Source: Agapetus fuscipes
Taxonomy: Eukaryota; Arthropoda; Insecta; Trichoptera; Glossosomatidae
Assembly: GCA_951799405.1 (NCBI GenBank)
Contig: OX637363.1
Location: 806,001-870,000, forward strand
Direction: 5' to 3'
Length of the DNA stretch: 64,000 nt
This document shows positions 4,706-57,522 of this stretch, in pieces; the first letter of the stretch is position 1, and every line of letters starts with the position of its first letter. The translations under genes and the position numbers were made by a program. The notes beneath the pieces were generated by a model. The model was not told the origin of the DNA and searched no databases. It worked only from the letters and a program-made list of their open reading frames with translations.

Positions 4706-4963
4706 ATAATCTATTTATAATCTATAATTTAAGTTGTAAAGATATATTAACATTTTAAGCTCATATCAAATGCATGCCCACAAGCAAACACGTGTAGTTC
4801 GCGCTTACAAACGCTGAATGTGTACTTAATGAAATCCAAACCTCAAATGAACATACACCATGCAAATCTTGCCGACCTTCCCTGAAATAGGGGTGACATT
4901 GGAAAAGTGAAGCATTTTTCACAGTATGGGTGGTCAGCCTCATACCAACCTATCAGTCAAGGA
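4706..4963 (-). repeat. C repeat
   Basis: Second tandem copy, full length, tail TATAATCTATAATTTAAG. Confidence 0.8.
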
Positions 4964-5142
4964 ATTCGCGCATACAAATGCTGAATTTGTACTTACAAAT
5001 TAAATCCAAACCGCAAATGAACATACACCCTGCAACTATTGCCGACCTTCCCTGAAACAGGGGTTACATCGGCAAAGTGAACCATTCTTCACAGAACGTA
5101 TGGGTGGTCAGCTAATACCAACGTATAAGTCAAGGAATATTT
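4964..5142 (-). repeat. C repeat lacking its 3' tail
   Basis: Third tandem copy. It begins inside the element at TCGCGCATACAAATGC, directly joined to the second copy. This suggests unequal exchange or insertion into an existing copy. Confidence 0.75.
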
Positions 5143-9146: not shown

Positions 9147-9690
9147 TGACAAATTACATTTTTAAATCAAAGAATAAAAATAACAATATATACATGGACA
9201 TAAAAAACTAAATCATAAAACCAATTTCACTTTAACAAACCCTAGCCGCCAACATCACAGATCAACCGCCATTTCTTTCTATCCTTGCATACTTCTTTCA
9301 TTTCCTCCAGAGTCATAACCTTCTTCATACAAGCTCTTCTTTTATTATGACTCTGGATATTCCATTCATTCGCAATTTCGGATATTTGGTCCATCCATAC
9401 CTTTCTCGGTCTTCCTCTACCACGACATCCATCTATTCTACCAACATATACTTTCTTCGTCAGTCTTTCCTCATTCATTCTCTCCATATGCCCAAACCAT
9501 CTTAACAAACTTCTTTTAATCTTCACTTTCACACTCTCTTTTGCACCACATTCTTTTCTTACAAAATCATTCCTCACCCTGTCACTCCGTTTTTTCCCAA
9601 TCATACTTCTTAGAAAGTCCATTTCAACAGTATGGACTTTACTAATTTCACTTTCATTCACCGTCCGTATGATATGATGGAGCCAAACCA
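9147..9690 (-). pseudogene. RTE-like LINE, reverse transcriptase C-terminus
   Basis: An open frame of 149 codons ends at 9242. It contains LLRWFGHMERMNEERLTKKV, GCRGRGRPRKVWMDQI and VCKDRKKWRLI, the usual C-terminal signature of RTE-like LINE proteins. The upstream endonuclease and RT catalytic parts (YXDD) are absent, so the copy is 5'-truncated. 3' UTR 9147-9241 runs into a C repeat. The residues shared with the copy at 33112-33535 are identical, pointing to recent retrotransposition. Confidence 0.8.
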
Positions 9691-10169
9691 TTTAGAGCTT
9701 TATACAATATTATTTTGGACAAATTAATAACCTATTAAATAACTACACTCATATTTTTATTTATATGTAAGGGGGCAGAGCTCTCGTTTTTTATGAAGGC
9801 TGAGTAAACCTTACCGAACTTCGAAACGGGAAATCATGTCTACCACATTTTTGTTTTTCAATAATATTCACGTGAATTATTTAGTTATTTGTAGTTAAAC
9901 ATATAAATCTATTTTTCATGACAGTTTTATTGAGAAAAAACTTTTTCATTAATAAAATGTGATATCACAATTTTTTTGATTAATTATTACGCGCGAAATA
10001 AATTCAATTCAAAGCGCTAAAAAAGGAGCCGTCAGATTTGACGGATGGATTTTGGCGGGAAAAATGGCTAACACAGAAGTGTCAATACCTTTTCATACCA
10101 CGACGGTAATTTATTGTTAGGAAGTCTTTGAAAAATTATGTGCCAATTTAAAGTTGCCAATTTTGGTTA
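9691..10169. other. Unassigned, AT-rich
   Basis: No gene or repeat family recognised. Confidence 0.4.
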
Positions 10170-16378: not shown

Positions 16379-16840
16379 CTAACCGTTTGTACTGTACTGT
16401 ATCCAGCCGCCGTTCCTTTTCCGTCTCCACTTTTTTCTGTCCTTACAAACCACTTTCATTTCCTCAATATTCATCACATTTTTCATACATACTCTTCTCT
16501 TATTCTCACTCTGCAGATTCCATTCTTTCGCAATCTCACCTATTTGGTCTAACCATTTTTTCCTCGGCCTTCCCCTTCCGCGCTTTCCTCTGACATTTCC
16601 TTTGTACACTTTCTTCGTTAGTCGTTCATCATCAATTCTTTCGAGATGTCCGAACCATCTCATCGTACTTTTTTGTACTTTCATTCTCATATTCTCTTTT
16701 ATACCACACTCGTTCATCACCCAATCATTACGTACTCTATCATTCAGTGTCTTTCCAGCCATTGCTCTCAGGTTCTGTGTTTTTCCGAAACTTCTTTCAG
16801 CACAGTAACAAATCGCCACAGAAGTTTTCAGTTCGGGCAA
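16379..16840 (-). pseudogene. RTE-like LINE, RT C-terminus
   Basis: A minus-strand frame of 153 codons contains STMRWFGHLERIDDERLTKK, GKRGRGRPRKKWLDQIGEI and VCKDRKKWRRKRNGG. It is related to the copies at 9242 and 33112 but clearly a different subfamily. It lacks catalytic regions and is not followed by a C repeat. Confidence 0.75.
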
Positions 16841-17070
16841 GTTTTGACAATACTCGTCCTAACAATATACAACGCACATTAACAATTTTGTCCCAAAACA
16901 ATCACATCCTGTCCCGAAATATGTTTTTAGGGAAAAAGGACCCGTTTGTTATAAAGTGATATAGGTAGGCACCTATTGTTTTGTCAGATTTCAAAAGTGT
17001 CTTGTTTTCAAAAGGACAACTTGACGAAAAACTAACGTTTGGTTTTGAGTGTCCTGAAAGGTTTCGGGTC

Positions 17071-18345: not shown

Positions 18346-19138
18346 AAATCGTCATTTTAGCAATCACAATATTTATAACGCGTAGGTATTATCTGTCGAT
18401 TCTAGCTGAGTTCGGACTTGTTCAGCAGCCGATATTATTCGCAATTGAATCAACTTTCTAGGCACATTTTTACATTCGACCGAGTTTTTTTTGTACACAT
18501 GGAAATGCAGCTGTGAAGATATTTTTTCTCTTTCTTACTAATGACCACTTTCGTAAGTAGGTTGAAACAGATATAGTATTTCTAGTCCGCAGATCGTGCA
18601 CACTTGTAGGTATTACACGGTGAGCCCATATTTTGCGATGTTTGGCCATAGAGCATAGAGCATAGACAATTCCGTCAAAAGGCAAAAACACTACGTGACG
18701 GGTTCCCGCCAAATTTATTACGAACGTTAATTTTGACGGCGGCGATTTATGAGAGGAGATGTATGAGGAAGAGTAGGGGGGGGGAGGTTGGAGGGAGGTG
18801 GGAGGGAGGTGGGAGGTGGGAGAGGCGGGCTGATGTAGGGCTGGCAAATAGAAAAAATTAAACCGGTTGTGAAATAAGTGACTAAAAAAAAGCCACCCAA
18901 CTAAGCTGCCCGCATTTCAGCAACGTAAGTTGTAAAATTCCGCGGTAAGGCCATCCTCAATTGTCGGGGAGAGAGTGTGCCTCCCGAAGACGCTGACTGC
19001 GTTGCGGATGAAACGTTGAAATTAATGTGTGTTCTCCCTAAAGAGGCCACTTACAAGAAATTGACCGTTATTTAAAAAAATACCAGTAAAAAAATATGCT
19101 TCTTACACTTTATTTGGTCATTTACAATTTAATTTGCT
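18346..19138. other. Unassigned; G-rich patch
   Basis: GGGAGG-type repeats at 18775-18825. A region near 18960-19020 resembles a decayed hammerhead half (GAAGACGC ... GATGAAACG) but does not fold properly. No gene. Confidence 0.4.
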
Positions 19139-19675
19139 ATAGACGCCAACGTAGACACAGATGTGAAACACAGGATAAACACTGCCTGGCTCAAGTGGAG
19201 ATCTCTGTCAGGTGTCTTGTGTGGCCAAAGGATCCCTATCAAGACTAAGGGCAAGGTCTACAAGACGGCAGTAAGGCCCGACATGCTATATGGAGCAGAG
19301 TGCTGGACTTGCAAAAACGTCCATGAACGACAAGTCCATGCTGCCGAGATGAAAATGCTGAGGTGGGCTGGAGGCGTCACTAGGCTAGACCACATAAGGA
19401 ACGAATACGTTAGGGGTAGCTTTAAGGTTGCCCCAATAACAGACAGGATTAGAGAATCCCAATTCCGGTGGTTCGGCCATGTGATGCGAAGAGACAATGA
19501 ACATATTGTCCAAAAAGCCCTCAGCATTCCCACAGGACCAAGAGGCAGAGGCCGCCCAATGGCAACATGGCGGGCCAATATTGAAAAAGAAATGCAAAAG
19601 GGAAACCTGACAGAGGAGATGAGCCAGGATAGAAAAGTTTGGCGTCTTCGAACAAGGAGGGCCGACCCCAAATGA
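19139..19675 (+). pseudogene. RTE-clade LINE, RT C-terminus (third subfamily)
   Basis: A frame of about 170 codons includes TAVRPDMLYGAECWTCKN, AEMKMLRWAGGVTRLDHIRN, SQFRWFGHVMRRDNEHI and GRGRPMATWRANIEKEM, the classical RTE-clade C-terminal block. The RT catalytic region is missing (5'-truncated). Stop at 19673. Frame intact, so fairly recent. Confidence 0.85.
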
Positions 19676-20984: not shown

Positions 20985-21222
20985 ATTCCTTGACTTATAG
21001 GTTGGTGTGCGGCTGACCACCCATGCTGTAAAAATGGTTCACTTTGCCAATGTCACCCCTGTTTCAGGGGAGGACGGCAAGAGTTGCAGGGTGTATGCCC
21101 ATTTGAGATTTGGTTTTTATGTTGTAGGTTCACATGAGGCATGTGCAAGCGCGAACTTGTACGTGTCTGGTTGTGAGAATGCATGTATTGTGAATCTCCA
21201 ATGTAACATATCTCTGCAACGT
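20985..21222 (+). repeat. C repeat
   Basis: Starts GATTCCTTGACTTATAGG and runs to CTGCAAC, where a minus-strand SINE A begins. Tail missing. Confidence 0.8.
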
Positions 21223-21433
21223 CTCTGTAAAAACGCCAATTCTCAACCAAGATCCAGTTGCTGTAAGACTGGATGGACCTATAGTGACCGATCTTTGGTA
21301 TATGAATTTTTCACACAGCGAAGAGCACATTTTAATACATAAATGGTATATTTTGTTGTGCTCCGCCGGGGTTCAAACCCACATACTTTCATTTTTGAGT
21401 CAGAAGTGTTAACTTCTAGATTACGGACCGGCA
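21223..21433 (-). repeat. SINE A, 5' two-thirds
   Basis: B box GGTTTGAACCC (one change) and a degraded A box. Its tRNA-like start abuts the Transib-like element at 21434. Confidence 0.7.
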
Positions 21434-23688
21434 CACAGTGGGCGGGATTCCAAATCTAGCGCATGATAAGTCCAGTTTTGAAGTATTGCCAATTCTAAGA
21501 AAAGTACCTGCATATGATAAATAGATAGCCCAGAAACAGTTCCTTATGGCAAAAATATTTTTTTTTTTGCGGGATAATCCCCGAGAGTCAGGTAAACATG
21601 ACTTTGTCGGAATAATGTCCGGTTTGAAAAATTATTCAGTTATTATTTGCCTTTCTACCTGGAAGCACTGTGCCTAAAGTTCTAGTCCAATCGTGTTCAT
21701 TGTTTTTGCATATTAAAGCTGAAGGCATGAACTTTGTTTTTTAAGAATGTTTGTTGTGTTTGCTTTATTATTTTGTCCAAAAATGTTTTTTGAATCACGT
21801 TGAGTATTTGGATTAATAAAATTACAATGTATACCTTTTCAGTAGACTCGGAATCAAAAGTTTGACCGGGATTGGCCATAATTTTAAGTGTCATATTAAG
21901 AAACACTTATGAGGCTTATTTTGTGGGTAAAAAATTTTGCTAGTTTTTGCGACTAATGTTTTTACGAATTTTTAAAGGAACCATGTCAGTCCAGAAAAAT
22001 AACTCTTCTTAGTATGGCAAAATGAAAGGACCGTAGCAAAAAAAACTACGGCAGTACAGGATTATTTATTTTCACAAATTAAGCTTCACAATGATGAAAA
22101 TAATGAATTTTGTATTAAAGTAAGACTAAAATTAAAATCGTGAATAAATAATCTGCGTTTAAAATGGGCACATTCATGCCGTAATGTTAATTTTTTTGAA
22201 AAAAAAATAAAAATGTAAATGGTTGTTGAAGAACATTACTTTGCCTGACTTCGATAATGTATCAGCACCCTCATTGTCTATGGGACGACTATTAGCTCAT
22301 TTTTTTCAAGTAAGTGACCAAACAAAACGTAAAAAGTTTATTCACTTCTTGAAACAAGAAGTCACTAAGAAATCATGTTTGCGTCAAAACTAATTTTCAA
22401 AACTCAGGCAAAAGAGATGCTGCTAAGGTCCTTACGGATCTTGAAACTACTTTACATCGTGCATCAAAGATAAAAAAAATATATGTATCTGCGTAGCCAA
22501 GTACACGTCCGAAGAAGCACTTGCATTGTATTTTGACGCAACTTTAGCCGAACACTCATACAGACTAATTGAATGGAGATGTTATTAGGGAAGCTAAAAA
22601 AATATTGTTATAACATTAAAAAATATATATAACCTAGTGAAAGCCTTATAAATACGTCCGATATTTCTGTGGTAGTAACCGTGCAAGGACTCGTCAACCA
22701 CACAGTGCAGAGGTTCCTGGAGAGTCAAAAAAGTGTTACAGCAAGCTCTCCTAGATTCAACATCTTCAGCATCAGACTTTACAATGCTGTACAAATGGAG
22801 AGACGACAAAAGTGCCAGTCAGTTCACTTATTTGTAAGCCTTCAGTCCATCAACATCTGAAGCTGAAGGAGTCTGAAACTGAAGGGACTGAACATCCAAA
22901 AAAAACGGATGCGTATTTGTTTGTCATATTTTGTATTGTGCCGCTTCTAGTAAAAAGGGGGGGAAAAATGATATGGAAAAATCCTCGACTATCTTCCACA
23001 AGGTATCTGTTGCAAGCCAACACAAATAATATTTGCAAAAGAGACAATCGAATAAACACGAAAAGGGAAATCGACAATGTGCAAAATCATATTCATGAAA
23101 TTATTTCGACTACAGTTACTTTTTGTGATTTTAATATTAGAGTAACTCATGTTTTTAAATTGACTAAGATTGATGAAAAGACATTTAATGTTATTACTGA
23201 ATCGTCATTGAAGACCTGTGAAGTATGTTGGACAGCCCCAAAAATAATACACAACATATGTAGATGAAGTGATGTGCTTGGGGAAAAATAAGTGTCTGTA
23301 CGAATATGGCTTCCACATTACATCCACATTACATGCGTAAATAAGATGTTTTGAGAGCTTGGTACATACTTCATATCGACTTTCTAAAAAAATGGCAAGT
23401 TTTTGAAGTGTCAGATAAAGCAGCCACTGAAAAAAAACAAGAATAAGTGATTGATGGGTTTACAGAAAAAAATAGTAAGTTTTTAAAATTTTAAAAATAA
23501 AACTTTCGACTTTACTCTTAATTTGTTCAATAATTGTGCATATTTTTCACAATATTTTGTGTCAGTTTTATCCAAAAACAACCACTTCTATCAATTCAAT
23601 AAAAAAAACCGGATATTTTTTCGATAAAAGCATAAATTTTCAGTATGACGACTTATCACGCGCTAGATTTAAGATTCCGCCCACTGTG
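21434..23688 (+). mobile_element. Transib/RAG1-like DNA transposon, decayed but with both ends
   Basis: The element begins CACAGTGGGCGG at 21434 and ends with the inverted match CCGCCCACTGTG at 23688. Similarity of the terminal repeats continues about 40 bp (ATCTAGCGCATGATAAGTC versus GACTTATCACGCGCTAGAT). The flanking 5 bp CGGCA (21429-21433 and 23689-23693) is an exact target duplication. CACAGTG ends with a GC-rich 5-bp duplication are hallmarks of Transib and RAG-type transposons. Internal coding is broken (see 22226-23360). Confidence 0.8.
22226..23360 (+). pseudogene. Transib/RAG1-like transposase remnant
   Basis: No intact frame remains, but successive fragments in order match my memory of arthropod Transib-type transposases: TLPDFDNV (22237), YTSEEALALYFD (near 22506), GLVNHTVQRFLESQKSV (22687), a decayed YKWRDDKSASQF segment near 22790 where the first catalytic Asp (KWGFDG-like) would be, WKNPRLSSTRYLLQ (22975), TESSLKTCEVC (near 23198) with a C-x2-C-like site, and a FHITSTLHA block near 23312. 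The C-terminal part with the last catalytic Glu is missing. Stops and frameshifts make it non-functional. Family assignment from memory plus the element's ends. Confidence 0.65.
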
Positions 23689-23693
23689 CGGCA

Positions 23694-28359: not shown

Positions 28360-28851
28360 ATCTATAATCTAAGTTGCAGAGATAAAAATGAATGCCCCCA
28401 AACAAACACGTGTAGTTTTATAATCTATAATCTAAGTTGCGAGGATATATTCATTCAAAGTTCTCAGATGTATGCCCACAAACAAACACGTGTAGTTCGC
28501 GCTTACAAATGCTGATTGTGTACTTACAAATAAAATCCAAACCTCAAATGAACATAAGCCCTGCAACTCTTGCCGACATTCCCTCAAACAGGGGTGACAT
28601 TGGCAAAGTGAACCATTTTTTACAGTATGGGTGGTCAACCTCATACCAACCTATAAGTCAAGGAATTTGAATTTGAAAAGTTCGCGCTTACAAATGCTGA
28701 ATGTGTCCTTACAAGTAAAATCCAAACTTCAAATGAACATAAGCCCTACAACTTTTGCCGACCTTCCCTAACACAGGGGTGACATTGGCAAAGTGAACAA
28801 TTTTTTACAGTATGGGTGGTCAGCCTCATACCAACCTATAAGTCAAGGATA
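28360..28851 (-). repeat. Three C repeats head to tail
   Basis: Fragment 28360-28420 (3' end only), full copy 28421-28664, and copy 28677-28851 lacking its 3' tail. Confidence 0.8.
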
Positions 28852-29113: not shown

Positions 29114-29273
29114 TATTTTTCCGATTATCACAGAAAACAGTCAGATCTTACTCCGCCATGTCTTTTCAACACTGTTGATATCATGTACAAACAAAGATCA
29201 TGCTATTCAACTTTCTAAAAATGGTATTAAATCGTAAATAATTTTTAATTTGCTTCCTTTTTTCTTGTTTCAG

Positions 29274-30636
29274 AGAGCTTAAAGACATAGTCGAGGACTC
29301 CTTGGCCGGGAAAAAGACATCAGCTGACAGAACGGAGAGGCCGTACAAAGATCTTATGTCAAACTTTGATGTCCTTAATCTGGTGCCAGATACTGAGACC
29401 AAGAAAGGAAAGGAAGACAATGAAAGAGGTCAAGATGGAAAATTAAAGTGGAGATCTGTTGGACAAGTAGCTGGGAGGGCTGTCAGTCTTGACACAATCG
29501 TTTGGCCTGGAGGAGACATCGTGGTTTCTGGATTATCAGCTCAAGCTAGAAGTGTCTTCAGAATTGTGACGGCTCTTTCTCCACCTTTCGTCATGGAGAG
29601 CGAGTTGGATGAAGATGGACAGTGCCTTCGCGGTATAATCTGTCACAGAGTTCTAACGTCAGATAAAGATAACCTCACTTTGGTGTTTAGCGAAATGGAA
29701 GCTATTGAAAGACTCGAAGATGAAGTTGAAGAAGAAGCGCAAGAGCGACAGGGTTCGTTTTTTCCACATTTGAAGTATCACCCGCAATATGAAAGCTTCA
29801 AAGAGAAATTCATGCCTTTTCAAAACAAGTATCGGTACCGTTCTAACTGCTGTTACGGCTTGACGATGGATTTGCTTGAAAATATCGCCGACGAATTGGA
29901 GTTTGATTTTCACTTGTACATAGTTAGCGATGGCTTATTCGGCACTAGGAAAATGTCCAGAAGGTACATCAAGAACCGTGAATACAAGTTGATGAGGAAA
30001 GATGCCAACAACAAGAAAATAGACTACGCAGCTGATGAATCGAGGACGTTCTCTGAATCCGACAGAGCATACGATGTCATCAAGCAAGACCCGGCTTCCG
30101 AAGAAGACATGAAATGGAACGGAATCGTTGGCGATTTGGTATCGGGCGCAGCTCACATGTCTTTTGCTGCTTTAAGTGTCTCGAGTGCAAGATCTGAAGT
30201 AATTGACTTTAGTGCACCATATTTCTACAGCGGAGTCTCATTCTTAGCAGCACCTCAAAAAAAATCCGAAATTCCTTTACTAGCTTTCCTTCTTCCGTTC
30301 TCTCCTGAACTTTGGATCGCAATATTCACATCGTTGAATGTCACAGCTATTGCTGTTGCTATTTATGAGTGGTTGTCTCCTTTCGGGTTGAATCCTTGGG
30401 GAAGACAGAGGTCTAAAAACTTCAGTATGTCTAGCGCACTTTGGGTGATGTGGGGTCTGCTTTGTGGACATCTGGTTGCTTTCAAGGCTCCTAAAAGCTG
30501 GCCCAACAAGTTCCTGATCAACGTTTGGGGCGGATTCTCGGTGATATTTGTGGCCAGCTATACTGCCAACATTGCTGCTCTGATCGCTGGACTTTTCTTC
30601 CACAATGCTGCCGTTGATAACTATCACGATAGAAGT
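29274..30636 (+). CDS. Nmdar2: Nmdar2 exon a: linker, S1, M1, pore loop, M3
   Basis: Acceptor TTGTTTCAG ends at 29273 and one base completes the preceding codon. Reading ELKDIVEDSLAG onward gives 454 residues. S1 includes CCYGLTMDLLENI, WNGIVGDLVSGAAHMSFAAL and RSEVIDFSAPYF; M1 is LLAFLLPF ... AVAIYEW; the pore loop is SSALWVMWGLLCGH; M3 is FSVIFVASYTANIAALIAG. The donor is GTAAGT at 30637 (phase 0). The in-frame codons after 30636 are intron. An acidic and Lys-rich insert lies in S1. The pore lacks the vertebrate tandem Asn. Confidence 0.95.
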
Positions 30637-33600
30637 GTAAGTTTTGCTTTATTTATCAATTGATTTGTCATTTTTAATCTCATTATCAATCTCTGCTTTG
30701 TGAACTATTGTAGAAAGTGTTAATTGTCATTTTTATAACAAACAAGACACAGTAGTGTTAAGATAATTATTACGTGTCTGGAATCTTCGAGCTAGTGCTA
30801 GTACATGTCAAATATGAACCGTAACAAAGGCGACAATCTAGGATTAGCAACACAGAAAATGACTCTCATTTATCTCATTATTTAAATCAAACTCTTAAAA
30901 TTTTCCCGTTTGGTAAGCTACGACTCTTGTAGCAGCCTCTAAATCTATTTCATTTTGATGCCTAAATAGTCTGTGTGACTAGAGGCTTTAGCAACCGATA
31001 ACAAATGTTAGCTTTCCTTTCATTTAGCAATTCGACCGGGCGACGTAATTTTTTGGATCTAGAAAATTCGTACCGAGTCAATTGTTGAAAGTAATTGCGA
31101 ATATCACTTCCCTACATTCTTCTTCTTCGCTGAGTCAGGCGCTTCACTATTTTTGGTCAGTATCGGGCAACCTCCACGGCTCCATCATTACCCTCCATCA
31201 GGTCGGCCAGTGAGCAGCTTGTTGGGCAGGCCGGGCAGATCCGAAGATGATACATGGGCTGTTGGGCTCCGCATTCGCAGAGCGTGGTGTCATCCTGATG
31301 CAAGATTCCCCAGGTCTGGGAGTCTCACCACCACGGTAGATCCTACCTATCGAATATCATTCAGATTAGTATGAAGACAAGATGGACGCAAGTGAACATC
31401 TGATTGGATATTGACAGGTCGTCATACAAAGATTACCGATTTCAATAGGTAAGAATCACCGTGGTGAAGAGACTTCCAGCCCTGTTTGCATGATTAAAAT
31501 ATGGTATTTTAGTTGAATTTTCTTCGTTTTTCAGCTTCTTTCCCAGCGTGTTGGTGCACCGAGGGCATCAGCAGCAGAATACTATGTGCAGAGAGCCAAC
31601 CATCTCCTGTGGGATCACATGAAGCATTTCACGCTATCTGACGTGGAAGACGGCATCAAGAGACTAAGGTAAACTTAATGAAATTTAATAATAATATTAG
31701 GTTATTTTATTTGGTGAGCGCTGTTATTGTGTGTATTACACCTCAAGAGCCTCCTGCGAGCTTGGTCGCCACTGTAGAAGAGACTGTCAATTAAGCTGTT
31801 GATGACCTTATGAGAGAGCACTATAAGGGACCCGTTGCGCCTCGTTGCCAGGCTTTCAAAGTTGCTCCCCATGCTGCATAAATTGTGGATAACTTCCACG
31901 CATTACCCCTATTTCGGAAGACGGCAGCAAAAGTTGCAGGGCTTATATATATATTTATAGTTGGATAATTTGTTTTCTCTTTTGGGCGCCGTTTGGTGAC
32001 TCCAGCCCCCCCAAGGGCGCCCATTCTTCGCTTGCTTCCTGGAAAACATGTAACTCTTCAACTCCTTCTTGAAACGTTCTTCATCGGTCTCCAACCTCAG
32101 CTTCAGAGGTAGCTGGTTCCAGCACAACGGTCCCGCTGAGCCAAACGCCCTTCATATCCCCAAAGCCCGTTCTGCTCCGTCGAGGTGGCATTTTCAGCCT
32201 GTTGATAGCATCACCTCTCGCTGAGTGAAGGGTTCACCGCTTACCAACAATCTCCTCAACCTCACACAGTTCAGTTAAAAAAGACGAGGTTGATGTATGT
32301 TGGTTTTCTTTGGACTTGCGTGTAACCAATTTGCTTAACATTTCAGGAATGGATCTCTGGACCTCCTCATAGCTGACTCTCCCATCTTGGACTACTACCT
32401 CGCAACGGACCACGGATGCAAGCTGCAAAGAATCGGAGAAAGCATCAATGAAGATACGTACGCTGTTGGAATGGCTAAAGGATTTCCTTTAAAGGTATAA
32501 TGTACTCCAACTTTATTTTTAGTTTAAGAAGAATCGAAAGATTGAAGAGAAGGCTGGGGGTGAGGCGAGGAATTGAGGGAAAGACATGTGGAAGAGAAAT
32601 CAAAGAATGAATGTAATGGAGTGGCTTTGAATGGATCCTTTAGGAGTGTAAGTGAAGATGACATAAATAAATGACAAATAACCAGGTTGATATGTTTGGT
32701 TAGAGTTTACAACTGCTGTTACAAATTCCTCTGTTAGAACTATTGATATTAGTCAAGAAAGTTCACTCATTTAGACTCAATAGGGTAATTTCTCTGGCTT
32801 AGTTTTTCAACTATAGCTCTTTACAATTCGCGCATTTTCGATTTCCGCGAAAACAGGACTTTTTTTTTTAATTAGGCAGATGTGAAATCGGTGGATCTTC
32901 GGAGTAAGCCGATCGGATCCATCTACGTCATTTTTACGTCACAGCGTGGCTAGCCGGCCGCGATTGATGTTCGAGAAATCGAGAACAGTCGAGAAATGTC
33001 CGTTTAGACGCTACATATTTGGACCGCAATCGTGTGAGAGAAGGTGTCGATTGAAACACTGAGCCGTGAAGTCGATAAACCAAGAGCTAGAAATCAGTAC
33101 ATTGTAAAGCGAAATTGTGTTGAAATGGACTTTACTGTTGGAATTACTGTTGAAATGGACTTTCTAAGAAGTATGATTGGGAAAAAACGGAGTGACAGGG
33201 TGAGGAATGATTTTGTAAGAAAAGAATGTGGTGCAAAAGAAAGTGTGAAAGTGAAGATTAAAAGAAGTTTGTTAAGATGGTTTGGGCATATGGAGAGAAT
33301 GAATGAGGAAAGACTGACGAAGAAAGTATATGTTGGTAGAATAGATGGATGTCGTGGTAGAGGAAGACCGAGAAAGGTATGGATGGACCAAATATCCGAA
33401 ATTGCGAATGAATGGAATATCCAGAGTCATAATAAAAGAAGAGCTTGTATGAAGAAGGTTATGACTCTGGAGGAAATGAAAGAAGTATGCAAGGATAGAA
33501 AGAAATGGCGGTTGATCTGTGATGTTGGCGGCTAGGGTTTGTTAAAGTGAAATTGGTTTTATGATTTAGTTTTTTATGTCCATGTATATATTGTTATTTT

Positions 33601-36600
33601 TATTCTTTGATTTAAAAATGTAATTTGTCATGTATGTTCCTTGACTTATAGGTTGTTATGCGGCTGACCACCCATAATATAAAAATTGGTTCACTTTGCC
33701 AATGTCACCCCTGTTTCAGGGAAGGACGGCAAGAGTTGCAAGGCTTATGTTCATTTGAGATTGGGTTTTTATATTGTAGGTCCACATGCGGCATGTGTTA
33801 GCGCGAAATTATACATATCTGCTTGTGGGAATGCATTTAGTATAAATCTTAAATGATATATATCTTTGCAGCTTAGATTAGATTAGATTAGAAATTGTGT
33901 AAAATAAATCTTGAAAAATAAATTGCAACGCAAAAAAAAAAGCAACTTAGCTACACATATAGTGTAACTTATTGCCTGCGTTTCCCCCGAAGGGGTCGCA
34001 TGTGGCGCTTCGGGACCTATTTATTTTTACAGGTAAGGGGGCCGGCCTCACACCAAGCACTTTCAGTTGAAGTGGGGGTTTCCCAGCTCCCAAACATGCA
34101 GTTTAATTAAAAGAACCCAACTAAAATCATAACAGCATGTTCAGTGGTGTGACTTTGTGAACAAATAAAAAAAAAAATAGAAAACTAATCCACAGAATAA
34201 AAACTGATTACTAGATAAGTCAAATTTAAAATTAATCTTCCATCCGCCAAAATAAAAATAAAAACTGTTTTTTTTCTTCGCTCACTTTTTTTTGCCGAAA
34301 ATTAAATTTCGCGTACTAACTCACGGGCAGCAGAAATTACATTTGGCTAGCAGAGAAATTCATGTTAAATGTAGCGCTGATTGCATATTAAGGGCACCTA
34401 TCTACGCTGAGCACCCTGTGGCCATTTTTAAAACACCCAGTGATATTATTTAAAAAAAAAATTTGGAGTATAATAATAATAATATTAGGATGATTTATTT
34501 GGTGAGCGCTGTATTTGTGTGTATCACACCTCAAGAGCCCTCTGCGAGCTTGGTCGTCGCTGTAGAAAGTGCCAATTCTCAAGCAAGACCCAGTTGTTGT
34601 AAGGTTGGATGGACCTTTCAGTGACCGGTCTTTGGTAAAGGTTTATGAAATTTTTCAACCCAGCGAAGAGCAAATTTGAAAATATAAATGGTAGATTTTT
34701 TGTGTCCCGCCGGGTTCGAACCTACAACCTTAGTTACGTGTTCGAAGTGTTACCACTTGGACTACGGACCGGTCGTAGTGTGACTTCGTGCCTGCGTTAT
34801 TCCCGAAGGAGTAGCATGCGGCGATTTGGAACCTATTTATTTTTACGGGTATGGGGGCCGTCCTCACGCTAACCACTTTCAGTTGAAGTGTAAATTTTGT
34901 TAAAATAAATATTTGCAGTTGAATTAAAAGAGAACCCCGGTAAAGTCGTTACAATGTATTTGTATATTTCCAGGAAAGCATATCTTCAGTGATCGCCAAG
35001 TATTCCACAAACGGCTACATGGACATTCTCCAGGAGAAGTGGTACGGAGGACTTCCATGCTTCAAGCTGGCGACGGACTACGGGATACAACCTAAGCCCT
35101 TGGGTGAGAAACCGTTACCAGTCAAATGTTTAAATGATGACAAAAACTAGCGAAAGAATTCAGCATTTAATTTGACATACAACGTATTCAAAAATAACTT
35201 TTTCCATGTATGTACGATAACTGTAACTGTAACTCTGTCACCATTCCGCTAGGGGTGGCCAAAGCCTCTGCAGAGTTGCCTCCATTTTTTCCTATCCTTA
35301 TGGGGCATCCACACGCTTGGGGCAAACGCCTTGCGGCGCGTAGTCTTAGAGCTTAGACGTATGAAACCTTACCTCGCAGAGACACTGTCAGGCTGGTAGT
35401 TTGCATCGAATACATGATTTTTTTCACAGATCTGCCTTTTCCTATCCTGGAGCGATTTGGATCTGTGAAAAATTCATGTACTCGATGCAAACTACCAGCC
35501 TGACCATGTCTTTGCCTGGTAGTGGATGAGGTAAGGTTTCATACGTCTAGCTCTAAAACTACTCACCGCAAGGCGCTTGCCGCAAGCGTGTGGATGCCCC
35601 ATTACATACAATTCATTCATATCCATCACCTTTTTCATGCGTTTTCTTCTTTTACGCTCACTTTGTATATCCCATTCTTTCACAATCTCCTCAATCTGTT
35701 CACTTCATACTTTTCTCGGTCGTCCCTTCCCTATTTTTCCTTTCACACTTTCTTTGTATACATACTGTGTGGGTAAAACCATCTGGGAGTAGTCCATGAT
35801 GGTGGTAGTGCATAGAACGACGTTCTGGTGTGAGCGAGACATCGAAGAATGATCTGGAATATGCAAGGAAGATCTCTGTTGCACCAGTATAAAAGGAAGG
35901 GCATAAACCAAAGTAGACGCTCGGAGCATTTTACCGTGAAAACAATAAATGCAGAGATTATCAACTATTTCAAATTGTGAACCAAGCTGTGTATAAGAAA
36001 TAATTGCAGTTTAATTAAAAGAGAACCCCATCAAAAACATAAAAATAACATTACACCACTTGTTACACGTCATGATTGAGTTCCACTGTTTCTGCTGCAG
36101 GAGTGGCAGCCGTGGCCGGAGTGTTTGCCCTCCTGGGAGTGGGCATGGCCGTGGGCCTGCTGATCCTGCTGGTGGAGCACCTGTTCTACAGGTACACGCT
36201 GCCCATCCTGCGCCACAAGCCCAAGGGCACCATCTGGAGGAGCAGGAACATCATGTTCTTCAGCCAGGTCAGTCGGAACCAACAAAAAACAAAACAAACC
36301 TCATGGAAGTGAAATTAATAAGAATTTGATACGCAGCGTGTACCTGTAGACCGGGTACACGCTGGTCCAACGCTTGGGTCTAATCTTATCTAATCTTTTT
36401 TATTGAAAAGATTTGTGAAGAGGAATGTAATTCACCAATCTATTCTGTGTGGCCAGAAACAGGTATTAATATCATCAATTAATAATTCATTATTGTTTAT
36501 TTTAATGAATTATTAATTAATAATTACCCGATAAAATCTGTTGTACCCGGGACAAAGTTATGGTCAAATGACCCAGGCGGCGATCGAACCAACGTTGTTC

Positions 36601-39600
36601 TATTCTAAACACGCTAGAAAGATCAGCCCACTTGACCCCCTTGGCAAATAACACCGACTATCTAATCTAAGTTGCAAATATATGTAACATTAAGGATTCA
36701 CATTATATGCATTTTCACTAACAGACACGTATAAGTTCGCGCTTAAACAAGCCGCGTGTAGACTTACAGTATAAAAACCAAAATCTCAAATTAACATACA
36801 CGCTGTAACTCTTATCGACCTTCCCTGAAACAGGGATTACATTGGCAGAAGTGAAACGCAACGCAACGCAACACAAACGCAACTAAGCTACACATATAGT
36901 GTAACTTCTTGCCTGCGTGGCTCTTCGGGCTGTGAAGGTGAAGGCTGAGTAAACCTTTGAGATCGAACCCTTGCTCTCGGCATGGAATGCAAGCATTCTA
37001 CCAATTGACCTTTTTACGAGCTTAGTCGTCGTCGCTACAGAGCGCCAATTCTCAAGCAAGACCCAGTTGCTGTAAGGCTGGATGGACCATTGGTGACCGG
37101 TCATTGGTAAAGGTTTTATGAATTTTTCAACCCAGCGAAGAGCAAATTTGAAAATATAAATGGTATATTTTTTGTGCTCCGCCGGGAATCGAACCCACAA
37201 CCTTCCCATTCAGAGTCCTCAGTGTTACCACTGAGCTACGGACCGGTCAGTACAACAATTTGTACAATATCAGCCTCATACCAACCTGCAAGAAAAAATG
37301 TGTTGACGAGAGAGGGTGAACACTGAGGTCAGTGCAAACCATTGGCAGCACCCTGGAGCTTCCGAGGAGAAGCCCGACTACCGTGTTTGGTGATCGGGCT
37401 TTCCGTGTTGCTGCGCCCATGGCCTGGAACTCTCTGCCGGCAGGACAAGGACAACGGACAAGGAGGCAGCTTCCAGAAAAACCCTGAAAACACATTTGTT
37501 TTCACAATCTGCAGCGCCTTTGGGGGGACCAACGGTCATGAAAAGCGCAACAAATATTGTAGTGTTTTTAGGGTTCTAATGTTTTGAAAATTTAAAATGA
37601 TGGTCTTATTAAATTAAAACGGCCGAAGATTTATTTTCAAGTAATTTATTTGGTTCACAATTTATTTTACAAAACACTTCGACAGTTCACTTTCGCTGAC
37701 TTGGCCTGTAAAGGCTACGAGTACTTTTAAACTGCCCTACTTGCAGGCGATTTACGCCTTATATAGCTATTACAATCAAACATTCTAGGCTTAAATTCGT
37801 CTGGAAACGTCTATGATATTCAAAAGCTTCCAATACAATTATTACTTATATAATATTTTCTTACTCTAGGTATTTAATAATAATTCATCCTACAGCTAGA
37901 GTCTATATACACCTACCCTATTTATTTTGTTTATACCTAAGTACTATTTACATAAAAATATAATAATACAATTCGAGGACCTATAATTTAAGTGGGCTAA
38001 AATGAATTGATAAATATTTATTGTCCTTGCAGAAACTGTACCGCTTCATCAACTGTGTGGAGCTGGTGTCTCCCCACCATGCGGCCAGGGAACTCGTGCA
38101 TACTCTGAGACAAGGACAGATCACGTCCCTGTTCCAGAAGAGCGTCAAAAGGGTAAGTGGGAGCTTCAATACCAAGTCGCATATTTAGGGCCTGTTGCAC
38201 CAACCTCCAAGCAATATTTGATGGACACATCAAATATTGATTCCTTAATTATCGTAAAGACTTCGATTAAATATTTCTGGGAAGTGGGTAAAAATATGCT
38301 GTTATTTGGAATTTTGTGTTTTTGGAAGAAATCACACTTAAATTTGATTTTTGTTTGATTGGAGTTTGGTGCAACAGGCCCTTAAAAGTGTGCACTCACA
38401 CGCTAGACAGCTTTACTTGATTAGGTACTGTCTGCCTCCTTAACAAGGTACTGTCTGCTCCCTTAACAAGATACTGTCTGCCCCCATAACAAGGTACTGT
38501 CTGCCCCCTCAACAAGGCGCCAGTATGCAAGCTTATTAACTGCCAAAAATCAGCTACCAGCAACTCGAGTTGCTAGAGACTTGCAGTAGCGTGTGCTGCC
38601 CTCTTTTGTACCTTATGATACCTGCTATGAATGCTCTCTTGTGTACCTTATGAAACCTGCTACGAATGCCCTCTTGTGTACCTTATGATACCTGCTATGA
38701 ATGCTCTTCTGTGTATCCTCTGATACCTGCTATGAATGCCCTCTTGTGTACCTTATGATACCTGCTATGAATGCCCTCTTGTGTACCTTATGATACCTGC
38801 TATGAATGCCCTTCTGTGTATCCTCTGATACCTGCTATGAATGCCCTCTTGTGTACCTTATGATACCTGCTATGAATGCCTTTCTGTGTATCCTCTGATA
38901 CCTGCCATGAATGCCCTCTTGTGTACCTTATGATACCTGCTATGAATGCCCTTCTGTGTATCCTCTGATACCTGCTATGAATGCCCTCTTGTGTACCTTA
39001 TGAAACCTGCTACGAATGCCCTCTTGTGTACCTTATGATACCTGCTATGAATGCCCTTCTGTGTATCCTCTGATACCTGCTATGAATGCCCTCTTGTGTA
39101 CCTTATGATACCTGCTATGAATGCCCTTTGTTTCAGAAGGAACATGAGCAGCGCAGGCGGAGAAAGAGCAAAGCCCAGTTCTTCGAGATGATACAAGAAA
39201 TAAGAAGGTAATATTTTTTTGTTTGTTAGTTTTTTACTAAAGTTGATGGAAGACCTAGCTTCCAGCCATTTAGAGACCTGGGCGTAGTAAATGGCGCAAC
39301 GGTTCTCTTATGGTGCTTTGTTACAAGATCATTAACTGTTGAATTAAAAGCCTCACTCTGTAAGAGAGTTTTAACTTTATTTGCCAAATTATTTTTTTTG
39401 CGTTTTTGCGAATTTTACACAAAAAGAAAATGTAGTAAAAATTGATAATGAATATTTCAGGGTTCAGCAAGAAGAACGAGATCAGCCATTGGAAGCCGTA
39501 ACGGAGATAGACTCAGAGACCACATCTCCAACCAACACCAAATCTTTGATGTCACCTCCAAAGAAGATCAACTTTTTGTCATTGACACCAAACGAAAACA

Positions 39601-40742
39601 AGATAAAGTCCCCACTGAAAGCCAAGCTCTTCACAAAGGACATTTTCAAGAGTCCACGCGCCAAGAACAAGAAGAGAAAACAGAGTGCAGGAGGACTGAA
39701 CGTCAGGAGGTTCAGCACAGACAGCGTGTTCAGCTCCCACTCAATGTTGCGCTTTGAAAACACAAGCGTCGCGATCGGACGTCGATTGAGCAAAGACACT
39801 GTCGGCTTAACCAACAGTCCTCCAGATATCAACAGCAGGCGATCCAGCTACTTAGATTTTTCAAATTTCGGTTCAAGGAGTCCAAATGTGTCAACAGATA
39901 GTTTGGACGCCACGAAAAAAGTAGCGACGATTCCAAAGTATAAAGGAAGGCAGTTCTTAGATTCGTCACCGAGTAGTTTTAATAAAAATGCAAAACCAAG
40001 GCCTACCTTAGGTGGAGCGTTTAGTAAGGATAGTAACGATGGCTATCCCACTGAAGCTAGATCATTTCAAAATGTATCCGAACGTGAAAAAAGCGAATTC
40101 GATCCGGAGACTTCTACTAGCGTAGGAGACTTGCATTCAAAACCAGAATACTCTCAATCTGAATTGCAGAAAAAACACAAGAAAACCTTTGAAGAGTTGC
40201 AAGAGCATTTGAGTTCAAAAGGAGATGCTAAAAGTCGGGGTAAATTACCAGTTCGAAGGTGTTTCAGCCAACAAACAGAAAACAAAACGCATTACCCGAT
40301 AAAAATACAAATAGAAGATCATTCCTCGCCTTCTGCGAGCGATAGAAATGTAAGGCAGAGACATAAGAGCTTAGAATTAGATGAAAACGACGATAGACTG
40401 CATCGATCTTATACTCCGGAATACGCTTCCAAACACGAAAGCAGGAAGAGTTCCGATAGATCGTATATTGATGTAGAACAGCCCAGAGAGTTACCTATTC
40501 CAGCTGTTAGGTCTAGAAGTGGATCTAGCACGGATCAGAATAATTGTAGATCTATGTATGATGATAACCTCCCACCAGCGCCTCCATATCCTAACGTGGC
40601 ACCTAGAAACTCCGACGGGAAATCTCCGTTAGACCGGCTCACTAAAGATGAACTGGTTTTGCTTTGGCGAAGTTCCGAATCGGAATTGAGGAGTCACTTG
40701 TTGACGGCGCTTAGGGAAAAGGAGAACTCGGAGCCACCTTGA
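29274..40742 (+). CDS. Nmdar2: NMDA-type glutamate receptor subunit 2 (GluN2), 3' eight exons
   Basis: Ligand-gated cation channel subunit that binds glutamate and pairs with GluN1 at excitatory synapses. Eight exons joined by consensus GT-AG introns keep one frame: a linker and S1 ligand-binding half, M1, pore loop, M3 with SYTANIAAL, S2 half (LLIADSPILDYYLATDHGC), M4 and a cytoplasmic tail of about 450 residues. Glutamate-contact equivalents are visible: Arg in SSARSEVIDF and Asp in IADSP. The signal peptide and the amino-terminal domain are not in these exons. No upstream exon was recognised in 1-29273, so they are either short or beyond the window. Introns hold many repeats. Insect-like sequence, very high confidence in family. 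Confidence 0.95.
30637..31310. other. Nmdar2 intron, unassigned part
   Basis: No repeat recognised except the MITE G that follows. Confidence 0.4.
31311..31484. mobile_element. MITE G in Nmdar2 intron
   Basis: CAGGTCTGGGAGTCTCACC ... inverted as ... GAGACTTCCAGCCCTG, with CACCACGGTA/CACCGTGGTG in both arms. Confidence 0.7.
31535..31668 (+). CDS. Nmdar2: Nmdar2 exon b: start of S2
   Basis: Acceptor TTTTTCAG, donor GTAAAC. Encodes LLSQRVGAPRASAAEYYVQR ... DVEDGIKRLR, the first part of the S2 ligand-binding lobe. Ends two bases into a codon. Confidence 0.92.
31697..31783 (-). repeat. SINE A, 3' end only
   Basis: Tail ATTTGGTGAGCGCTG and ACACCTCAAGAGCC, cut off after GTAGAAG. Confidence 0.65.
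31870..31952 (+). repeat. C repeat fragment
   Basis: ACCCCTATTTCGGAAGACGG and AAAAGTTGCAGGGCTTAT only. Confidence 0.55.
31955..32260 (-). pseudogene. CR1/L2-like LINE, RT C-terminus
   Basis: Minus strand has RRSRTGFGD and CWNQLPLKLRLETDEERFKK ELKSYMF, with a frameshift between, plus a GGCGCC hairpin-like 3' end. Confidence 0.65.
32347..32494 (+). CDS. Nmdar2: Nmdar2 exon c: S2 with glutamate-binding Asp
   Basis: Acceptor CATTTCAG, donor GTATAA. Encodes NGSLDLLIADSPILDYYLA, TDHGCKLQRIGESINEDTY and AVGMAKGFPLK. The Asp of IADSP aligns with the amino-group-binding Asp of glutamate receptors. Confidence 0.93.
32775..32935 (+). repeat. I repeat
   Basis: AATTCGCGCATTTTCGATTT with CCGCGAAAACAGGACT and GGATCTTCGGAGT. 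A second copy lies inverted at 62858-63075. Confidence 0.5.
32950..33111 (+). repeat. LTR-like repeat E, partial
   Basis: TCGAGAA words, a diverged TATA region, and GAGCCGTGAAGTCGATAAAC. It joins a LINE fragment, creating a chimeric open frame (33044-33535). Confidence 0.6.
33112..33634 (+). pseudogene. RTE-like LINE, RT C-terminus
   Basis: Codons to 33535 are identical in protein sequence to the copy at 9242-9691 from MDFLRSMIGKK to the stop. The 3' UTR is also nearly identical. 5'-truncated near 33143. Lies in an Nmdar2 intron in sense orientation. Confidence 0.8.
33635..33893 (+). repeat. C repeat (LINE 3' end)
   Basis: Tail of four TTAGA units. Confidence 0.85.
33930..34098 (-). repeat. 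SINE B, 3' half
   Basis: CAACTTAGCTACACATATAG to CCCAGCTCCC. Confidence 0.75.
34470..34773 (-). repeat. SINE A, full length
   Basis: Complete from (ATT)n tail to tRNA-like start, with B box GGTTCGAACC. Confidence 0.8.
34776..34894 (-). repeat. SINE B fragment adjoining SINE A
   Basis: Keeps the 3' part of the body without its terminal GTAGCTTAG. Confidence 0.65.
34905..34955 (+). repeat. LTR end fragment
   Basis: GCAGTTGAATTAAAAGAGAA with CCCCGG...CGTTACA resembles the end of the LTR-like block at 35764-36050 and a short piece at 34100-34130. Confidence 0.45.
34974..35103 (+). CDS. Nmdar2: Nmdar2 exon d: end of S2
   Basis: Acceptor TATTTCCAG, donor GTGAGA. Encodes ESISSVIAKYSTNGYMDILQ, EKWYGGLPCFKLATDY and PKPLG. 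The Cys in LPCF fits the S2 disulphide partner of C in DHGC. Confidence 0.92.
35215..35740 (-). pseudogene. RTE-like LINE fragment split by a MITE
   Basis: Minus-strand KEWDIQSERKRRKRMKKVMD at 35602-35690 and its continuation at 35215-35300 are one LINE copy, of the 12555 subfamily. Confidence 0.7.
35301..35601. mobile_element. Harbinger-like MITE with TTA duplication
   Basis: TGGGGCATCCACACGCTTG is exactly inverted at the right end, with TTA on both sides (35298-35300 and 35602-35604). Imperfect inverted similarity covers most of the 301 bp. Confidence 0.8.
35764..36050 (+). mobile_element. Probable solo LTR in Nmdar2 intron
   Basis: TATA box CAGTATAAAAGG (35888), AATAAATGCAGAG downstream, and GAATTAAAAGAGAACCCC-like end. 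Start TGTGTGGGTAAAACC. Edges uncertain; no target duplication found. It ends about 50 bp before the M4 exon. Confidence 0.5.
36101..36267 (+). CDS. Nmdar2: Nmdar2 exon e: M4 helix
   Basis: Acceptor TCTGCTGCAG, donor GTCAGT. Encodes VAAVAGVFALLGVGMAVGLL and ILLVEHLFYRY (M4), then KPKGTIWRSRNIMFFSQ. Markedly GC-rich at third codon positions compared with the other exons of this gene. Confidence 0.93.
36390..36657 (-). repeat. SINE D
   Basis: Second copy of the family at 391-652, with GGTTCGATCGCC B box on the minus strand. Confidence 0.65.
36658..36851 (-). repeat. C repeat, 5' part missing
   Basis: Tail TATCTAATCTAAG to CTGAAACAGGGATTACATTGG, then a SINE composite starts. Confidence 0.7.
36858..37246 (-). 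repeat. Composite SINE A-B
   Basis: On the minus strand, SINE A (37246 to 37013, both Pol III boxes) is fused without its LINE-like tail to SINE B (37012 to 36858). The junction is CTCGTAAAAAGGTCAATTGG. SINE B is internally deleted. Confidence 0.75.
37318..37545 (+). pseudogene. CR1/L2-like LINE, RT C-terminus
   Basis: Plus-strand codons SPTTVFGDRAFRVAAPMAWN SLPAG, then a frameshift before a KTLKTHLF-like end. Confidence 0.65.
37546..38032. other. Nmdar2 intron, unassigned AT-rich
   Basis: Nothing recognised. Confidence 0.4.
38033..38152 (+). CDS. Nmdar2: Nmdar2 exon f: proximal cytoplasmic tail
   Basis: Acceptor TCCTTGCAG, donor GTAAGT. Exactly 40 codons: KLYRFINCVELVSPHHAARE ... GQITSLFQKSVKR. 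Confidence 0.92.
38188..38381. mobile_element. MITE with GGGCCTGTTGCACCAA TIRs, TTA duplication
   Basis: GGGCCTGTTGCACCAA and its inverse TTGGTGCAACAGGCCC bound 194 bp. TTA flanks both ends. Confidence 0.8.
38420..38515. repeat. Short tandem repeat, about 27-bp unit
   Basis: Four copies of AACAAGGTACTGTCTGCCCC-like units. Confidence 0.75.
38590..39128. repeat. 35-bp minisatellite adjoining an Nmdar2 splice acceptor
   Basis: About 15 copies of two alternating 35-bp variants (CTCTTGTGTACCTTATGATA... and CTTCTGTGTATCCTCTGATA..., both ending CCTGCTATGAATGCC). The last unit supplies ATGAATGCCCTTTG just before the TTTCAG acceptor. Confidence 0.9.
39137..39207 (+). CDS. Nmdar2: Nmdar2 exon g: basic tail segment
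   Basis: Acceptor CTTTGTTTCAG, donor GTAATA. Encodes KEHEQRRRRKSKAQFFEMIQ EIR. A 35-bp minisatellite ends 8 bp before the acceptor AG. Confidence 0.9.
39461..40742 (+). CDS. Nmdar2: Nmdar2 last exon: C-terminal tail
   Basis: Acceptor AATATTTCAG ends at 39460. The frame runs 427 codons to TGA at 40740-40742. The tail is Ser, Arg, Lys and Asn rich, with many potential phosphosites and a PPAPPYP segment. It ends with DRLTKDELVLLWRSSESELR ... REKENSEPP. No ESDV-type PDZ ligand is present. The in-frame codons at 39381-39460 are intron. Confidence 0.92.
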
Positions 40743-56392: not shown

Positions 56393-57248
56393 TTTCTGCG
56401 GTACTACAACAAGTGTCATAGACCCTTAGAGTCTCTGAAATTTAGGGAGTCCCCCGCGCAGGATTTCTTAAAAAAAAAAGGGAAGCAACTATCCTCAACT
56501 CCAAGAATCCCACCTTAAGTTGTAGTGAAAATTATGACCATGTTGAGGAAAGCTTGATCTTACATAGTCCTAACTATTTTTGTAAACAACAAAGTTAATC
56601 CCTTCCAACATTACCCTTTTACAGATAAACAGATGCCATGGTTATACCGCTATTTGGATTATCTAGCCGTAGGACAATTTATAATAGTTTTCATTTGTTT
56701 TTATTTACAGATTATACACAATAAACAGCTTAGTTTTCTTTTTCTTCTTTCGTGGATTTTAGCTACACATAGTTTTTTAAACATTTCATACAGCAGTTAT
56801 TTTTAAATATAACACATCCTTAAAATAATTGTTATGAATAGGTATATTTGTTTTCCATACACAATAAATTTATAGAATAATGTAACGTATATTTGTTTTT
56901 TTTTGTATGCACACTACTACATTAAAATATGTATGTTTTAATTGAGTTTTAACATTAAACAACAACAAAAAACTTCTTACAAACAATTTTACTACCCCAA
57001 TGCACAATATAATGAATGAATACAAAACCAAAGGCGGCTAATCATTTAGAATTGTTTTTAAAACTGGAATAAATATATGAAAATAGAGAGAAGGGTATTC
57101 TTGGTGGTTCCATACACTTATGTCAACAACAATACCATGTTGAAAGCACCGGCTCTCATCAGATCACCAAAGATAAGCAACATTGGGCGCGGATGCTACT
57201 TGTATGGGTGACCGCTAGGTACACCGTTTGTTGTTGTCATTTCTTGGA
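56393..57248. other. Unassigned
   Basis: AACAAGTGTCATAGACCC with GGGAGTCCCCCGCGCAGGA near 56405-56470 resembles pieces near 27150-27215 and 51873-51925, so a minor repeat. Otherwise AT-rich. Confidence 0.4.
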
Positions 57249-57522
57249 TCGGTCCGTAGTCCAGTGGCAACACTTCGGACTCGTAAATGGAAGGTTGTGG
57301 ATTCGAATCCCGGCGGAGCACAAAAGTATACCATTTATATTTCCAAAATGTGCTCTTCGCTGGGTTGAAAAATTCATAAACCTTTACCAAAGACCGTCAC
57401 TGAAAGGTCCATCCAAGCTTACAACAACTGGGTCTTGCTTGAGAATTGGCGCTTTCTACAGCGATGACCAAGCTCGCAGAAGGCTCTTGAGGTGTGATAC
57501 ACACAAAAACAGCGCTCACCAA
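57249..57522 (+). repeat. SINE A, full length
   Basis: Best-preserved copy: A box TAGTCCAGTGG, B box GATTCGAATCC, tail GGCTCTTGAGGTGTGATACA ending GCGCTCACCAAAT, then a C repeat tail. Confidence 0.85.

Follow-up and report, generated by a model that had tools for sequence, protein, structure and literature searches.

A 2,255-bp element that spans 21434-23688 of the window (the whole 64-kb stretch of DNA analysed, to which all positions refer) carries CACAGTG at its left tip and the inverse, CACTGTG, at its right tip. A preliminary description of this locus read the element as a dead copy of a Transib transposon, the group related to RAG1, and the question is whether its ends, its flanks and its coding remains bear out such an origin. 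We conclude, with a probability of about 97%, that the element derives from a Transib DNA transposon and represents a copy that has decayed and been shortened internally. The features on which this conclusion rests are collected in Table 1.

Table 1. Coordinates of the element, its coding remains and its insertion target
Feature	Position	Strand	Basis or remark
tRNA-like SINE, insertion target, outside the element	21221..21431	-	blastn copies elsewhere in the window
Left target-site duplication, CGGCA	21429..21433		Overlaps the first bases of the minus-strand tRNA-like SINE on the left
Left terminal inverted repeat, CACAGTG heptamer first	21434..21472	+	Repeat comparison of the ends
Probable transposase frame start, ATG-TCA-GTC; tenth codon a stop	21983..22012	+	Inference; a frame change then leads to the first piece that matches
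Broken Transib transposase gene, nine partly overlapping pieces in three frames	22003..23443	+	Profile, tblastn and read-through
Longest intact piece, 170 codons, with the second aspartate in LTKIDEK and a conserved CxxC	22755..23264	+	Profile E 3.2e-25
Internal deletion: 173 bp where ~600 bp of coding sequence (C-terminal part with the glutamate) is expected	23477..23649	+	Best E 0.033
Right terminal inverted repeat, CACTGTG at its end	23650..23688	-	Repeat comparison of the ends
Right target-site duplication, CGGCA	23689..23693		Sequence read, SINE comparison

Ends of the element and target duplication

The two heptamers were found exactly at the tips (21434-21440 and 23682-23688), where they form part of 39-nt terminal inverted repeats that align without gaps and are identical at 34 of 39 positions, in agreement with the repeat of about 40 bp first described. 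Local alignment of the two 100-nt element ends gave a score of 31.5, whereas none of 1,000 shuffles exceeded 19.0. Directly outside both tips stands the same GC-rich 5-bp sequence, CGGCA, so that the perfect duplication claimed earlier was recovered on both flanks. With the tips included, CACAGTG occurs four times and CACTGTG five times across the 64 kb, and the heptamer by itself is therefore no proof; what counts is its position at both tips, together with the long repeat and the adjoining duplication.

The kinship of the ends with RAG recombination signals, also put forward in the preliminary description, held for the CACAGTG heptamer but did not extend to the nonamer. With at least six of nine matches to ACAAAAACC required, the scanned positions within the first 60 nt of each end, those 12 and 23 bp from the heptamer among them, contained no RSS nonamer. 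The RSS likeness of the element ends is confined to the heptamer.

Ends that begin with CAC can also be found in CACTA-type elements. The element might accordingly belong to another superfamily (CACTA-like or hAT-like), with a chance likeness to the heptamer and with Transib pieces brought in by a nested insertion. We regard this as extremely improbable: a 5-bp duplication is described as typical of Transib (PMC4411706), as is a GC bias of the duplicated target (PMC8289069); the Transib pieces lie in order and start near a probable start codon; and a search for inner inverted repeats in the element found none above 24 nt, which speaks against a nested insertion.

The SINE at the insertion site

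The sequence on the left flank is a SINE, copies of which allowed the duplication to be read against its target. Because tRNA gene calling gave nothing in the 64-kb window, the description of this SINE as tRNA-like reflects a visual reading of a T-arm-like stretch and of its head. Seven blastn copies in the window extend to the end that adjoins the element, and the starts of six were inspected. Taken as alignment start points, three of the six read CCGGTCCG, two more start one or two bases further in than these (CGGTCCG and GGTCCG), and one reads CCAGTCTG. Read in the orientation of the SINE, the flank is TGCCG-GTCCG, and the duplication TGCCG seems to be composed of two bases of older flank followed by the first three bases of the SINE. 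The right-hand CGGCA would thus carry SINE bases severed from the SINE, and therefore a true duplication is favoured over a chance match; the reading supports an insertion that split off the first bases of the SINE and left a real target duplication. A short stretch to the right of the element has similar copies at 406-437 and 36412-36443, and neither copy is directly preceded by CGGCA.

Two further observations concern the SINE and its surroundings. A SINE copy at 57250-57464 lies in the same orientation as a diverged full-length match to 5S rRNA (57122-57239, 66 bits), which stops 10 bp before it; the pair may represent a 5S pseudogene beside a SINE, or possibly a 5S-tRNA composite SINE. Directly to the left of the SINE at the insertion site lies a repeat of about 170-235 bp (20986-21220) that has some 30 further blastn matches in the window; the family is dispersed, and tandem in two places (examples are 61639-61876, 4733-5138 and 28468-28849).

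A broken transposase gene inside the element

The coding remains were assembled into a read-through protein, in which the frames were chosen and an X was placed at each break, a choice of frames that favours a match. At E <= 1, the search with this protein retrieved 26 proteins among 2,840 candidates, the best being P0001 (E 6.3e-56, 34% identity over 99%; 163 identities with the relic in 434 aligned residues). P0001 to P0008, which come from Logan 'lgn' assemblies and are known here from their proteins alone, cover 69-100% of the read-through at 30-34% identity; seven of these eight are 601-689 residues long, and P0008 has 542 residues.

A profile of 24 of the 26 relatives, the relic being left out, was queried against stop-to-stop pieces of at least 20 codons on both strands, with 2,137 stop-to-stop pieces of the reversed window as the control. 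Nine of the 2,129 window pieces matched at E <= 1, all on the plus strand within 22003-23443, as opposed to none in the control. Six of these matches had E values of 7e-4 or lower (best 3.2e-25), one had 0.011, and two were weak (0.66 and 0.95). The tblastn search at E <= 0.01 gave a consistent picture: 24 of the 26 relatives matched the element, all 68 matches lay inside it, and none of the 26 matched elsewhere in the window or in the reversed window. Neither test involves a choice of frames, yet the relatives themselves had been collected via the read-through.

The order of the pieces was preserved, as had been stated from the bare sequence. The tblastn matches of P0001 are collinear (residues 8-75, 177-200, 216-264, 288-417 and 423-457), and the pieces extend from the N-terminal part past the second conserved aspartate. 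The M-S-V start that we propose for the frame is also present in 4 of the 24 relatives.

The transposase is of the Transib type

In the PDB, the only match of the read-through at E <= 1 was the HzTransib transposase (6PQN, E 1.9e-11; five further entries represent the same protein), with both aspartates aligned, and no RAG1 or RAG1L chain was retrieved. Of two pieces searched separately, one had a chance match (E 0.27) and the other had no match. For P0001, the E value was 6.5e-113 with HzTransib, 4e-8 with RAG1L (6b40), 1e-7 or weaker with RAG1, and 4.7e-8 with the Pfam family RAG1. Among five relatives scanned with Pfam, RAG1 (PF12940) appeared in all five, four of them above the cut-off and P0009 just below it (24.9 versus 25). 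PF26100 is precomputed for many relatives and was missing from our own scan of the five relatives and the read-through. The broken pieces and the read-through, searched with Pfam, yielded chance matches below the threshold and neither RAG1 nor a transposase family. When viral contigs were scanned with the alignment, none of the 65 pattern matches was confirmed.

These comparisons bear on whether the element could be what remains of a RAG-like transposon (ProtoRAG/RAGL) that carried both RAG1L and RAG2L. RAGL elements are likewise described as having heptamer-like ends and 5-bp duplications (PMC7204232, PMC8289069), and the relic resembles them and vertebrate RAG1 in these two respects, with a distant homology of the core that is visible through the relatives. 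It differs from them in having no nonamer. The only stop-to-stop frame of at least 130 codons that overlaps the element is the transposase piece, and no RAG2-like gene was seen among frames of this length in what is a shortened copy. As judged from the proteins, the element is Transib rather than RAGL, because the read-through matches HzTransib only and P0001, the single relative compared with the PDB, is much nearer to HzTransib than to RAG1L; the RAGL origin is very improbable. The comparison with Transib and ProtoRAG transposases that the preliminary description had suggested for full-length copies came out, for the read-through and P0001, on the side of Transib.

HzTransib comes from Helicoverpa zea (PMC8355894). 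According to PMC8289069, most Transib families, Hztransib included, have symmetric terminal repeats that resemble the RSS heptamer and show little or no likeness to the nonamer; the relic shares heptamer-like ends and the lack of a nonamer with them. Unlike the few Transibs described with 12/23-like ends (PMC8355894), it is without such ends. It differs from HzTransib in being broken, in lacking the C-terminal part and in its protein sequence, where the similarity is no more than distant.

Decay and internal shortening of the copy

The alignment of the relatives contains three conserved acidic columns, D, D and E, which we take to be the catalytic residues of the transposase. All 24 relatives have D in the first column, and 23 have it in the second, where the remaining one has a gap; both aspartates are present in the relic. 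In the third column, 21 relatives have E, two have a gap and one has I; this column is without a counterpart in the relic, where the region of the glutamate is missing. The acidic triad, named at the outset as a feature to be checked, is therefore preserved in its two aspartates and lost in its glutamate. Because most relatives keep all three columns, the missing glutamate is a decay of the relic copy itself.

The alignment of the read-through ends near residue 486 of the 685 of P0001, and the P0001 tblastn match ends at residue 457. Across 23400-23693, tblastn gave no significant match to the remaining C-terminal ~200 residues (best E 0.033). This best hit, at 23520-23588 (P0004 residues 629-651), was considered as a surviving extreme C-terminus and was set aside as not significant. 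With 173 bp left from 23477 where ~600 bp are expected, about 420 bp or more have been lost. Since frame changes and stops occur throughout, the relic is dead as a coding unit, as the preliminary description had held.

We propose the following history. A full-length parent would have encoded a transposase of ~690 residues that bound the CACAGTG-starting repeats. By analogy with RAG, this enzyme may have excised the element at the heptamers via nicking and hairpin formation, and the excised element would have been inserted with a 5-bp stagger into a GC-rich target; nicking, hairpins and 5-bp duplications are described for both RAG and Transib (PMC7204232, PMC8355894, PMC8289069, PMC11844651). 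An internal deletion removed the C-terminal part together with the catalytic glutamate, the relic accumulated many frameshifts and stops, and the enzyme can no longer be encoded by it.

In a variant of this explanation, the deletion came first and the shortened form spread as a short non-autonomous family by means of a full-length Transib. Cut-and-paste elements commonly give rise to internally deleted derivatives, and the ends of the relic are well matched (34 of 39) despite a badly broken gene. On the other hand, no second copy lies within the 64-kb window, and loss of the middle from a lone copy after its insertion accounts for the data equally well. We consider such a family unlikely.

Significance of the relic

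The relic adds to the traces left by Transib activity; its ends are clean, and a SINE provides the reference for its target duplication. The kinship of Transib with RAG1 is already accepted, and this copy confirms that picture rather than altering it. Its use would lie in drawing attention to an insect lineage in which intact CACAGTG-ended copies could be sought. Tentatively, and with more doubt than confidence, we raise the possibility that its Transib family is undescribed, carries the exact vertebrate consensus heptamer CACAGTG and may have active copies in the insect. If true, the family would be a further natural substrate on which to test how far the recognition of V(D)J signals is older than RAG.

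Neighbouring sequences in the window

Four frames (9242-9691, 16379-16858, 19133-19675 and 33038-33535) presumably resemble the C-terminal tails of non-LTR reverse transcriptases; the two tested, at 9245-9691 and 19133-19672, had no Pfam match at 0.001. An open frame of 455 codons at 39375-40742 is rich in Ser and Lys, has no Pfam match at 0.001 and may represent a host-gene exon. At 29242-30663 lies a frame for part of an ionotropic glutamate receptor (by Pfam), NMDA-receptor-3-like and of insect type; its relatives place the host among the insects, and megablast of this exon against phage records gave no match. Its top matches are two assembly proteins (79% and 76% over 94%), and its best named relatives are found in Cryptotermes secundus (76% over 58%) and in beetles (64-65% over 96%).
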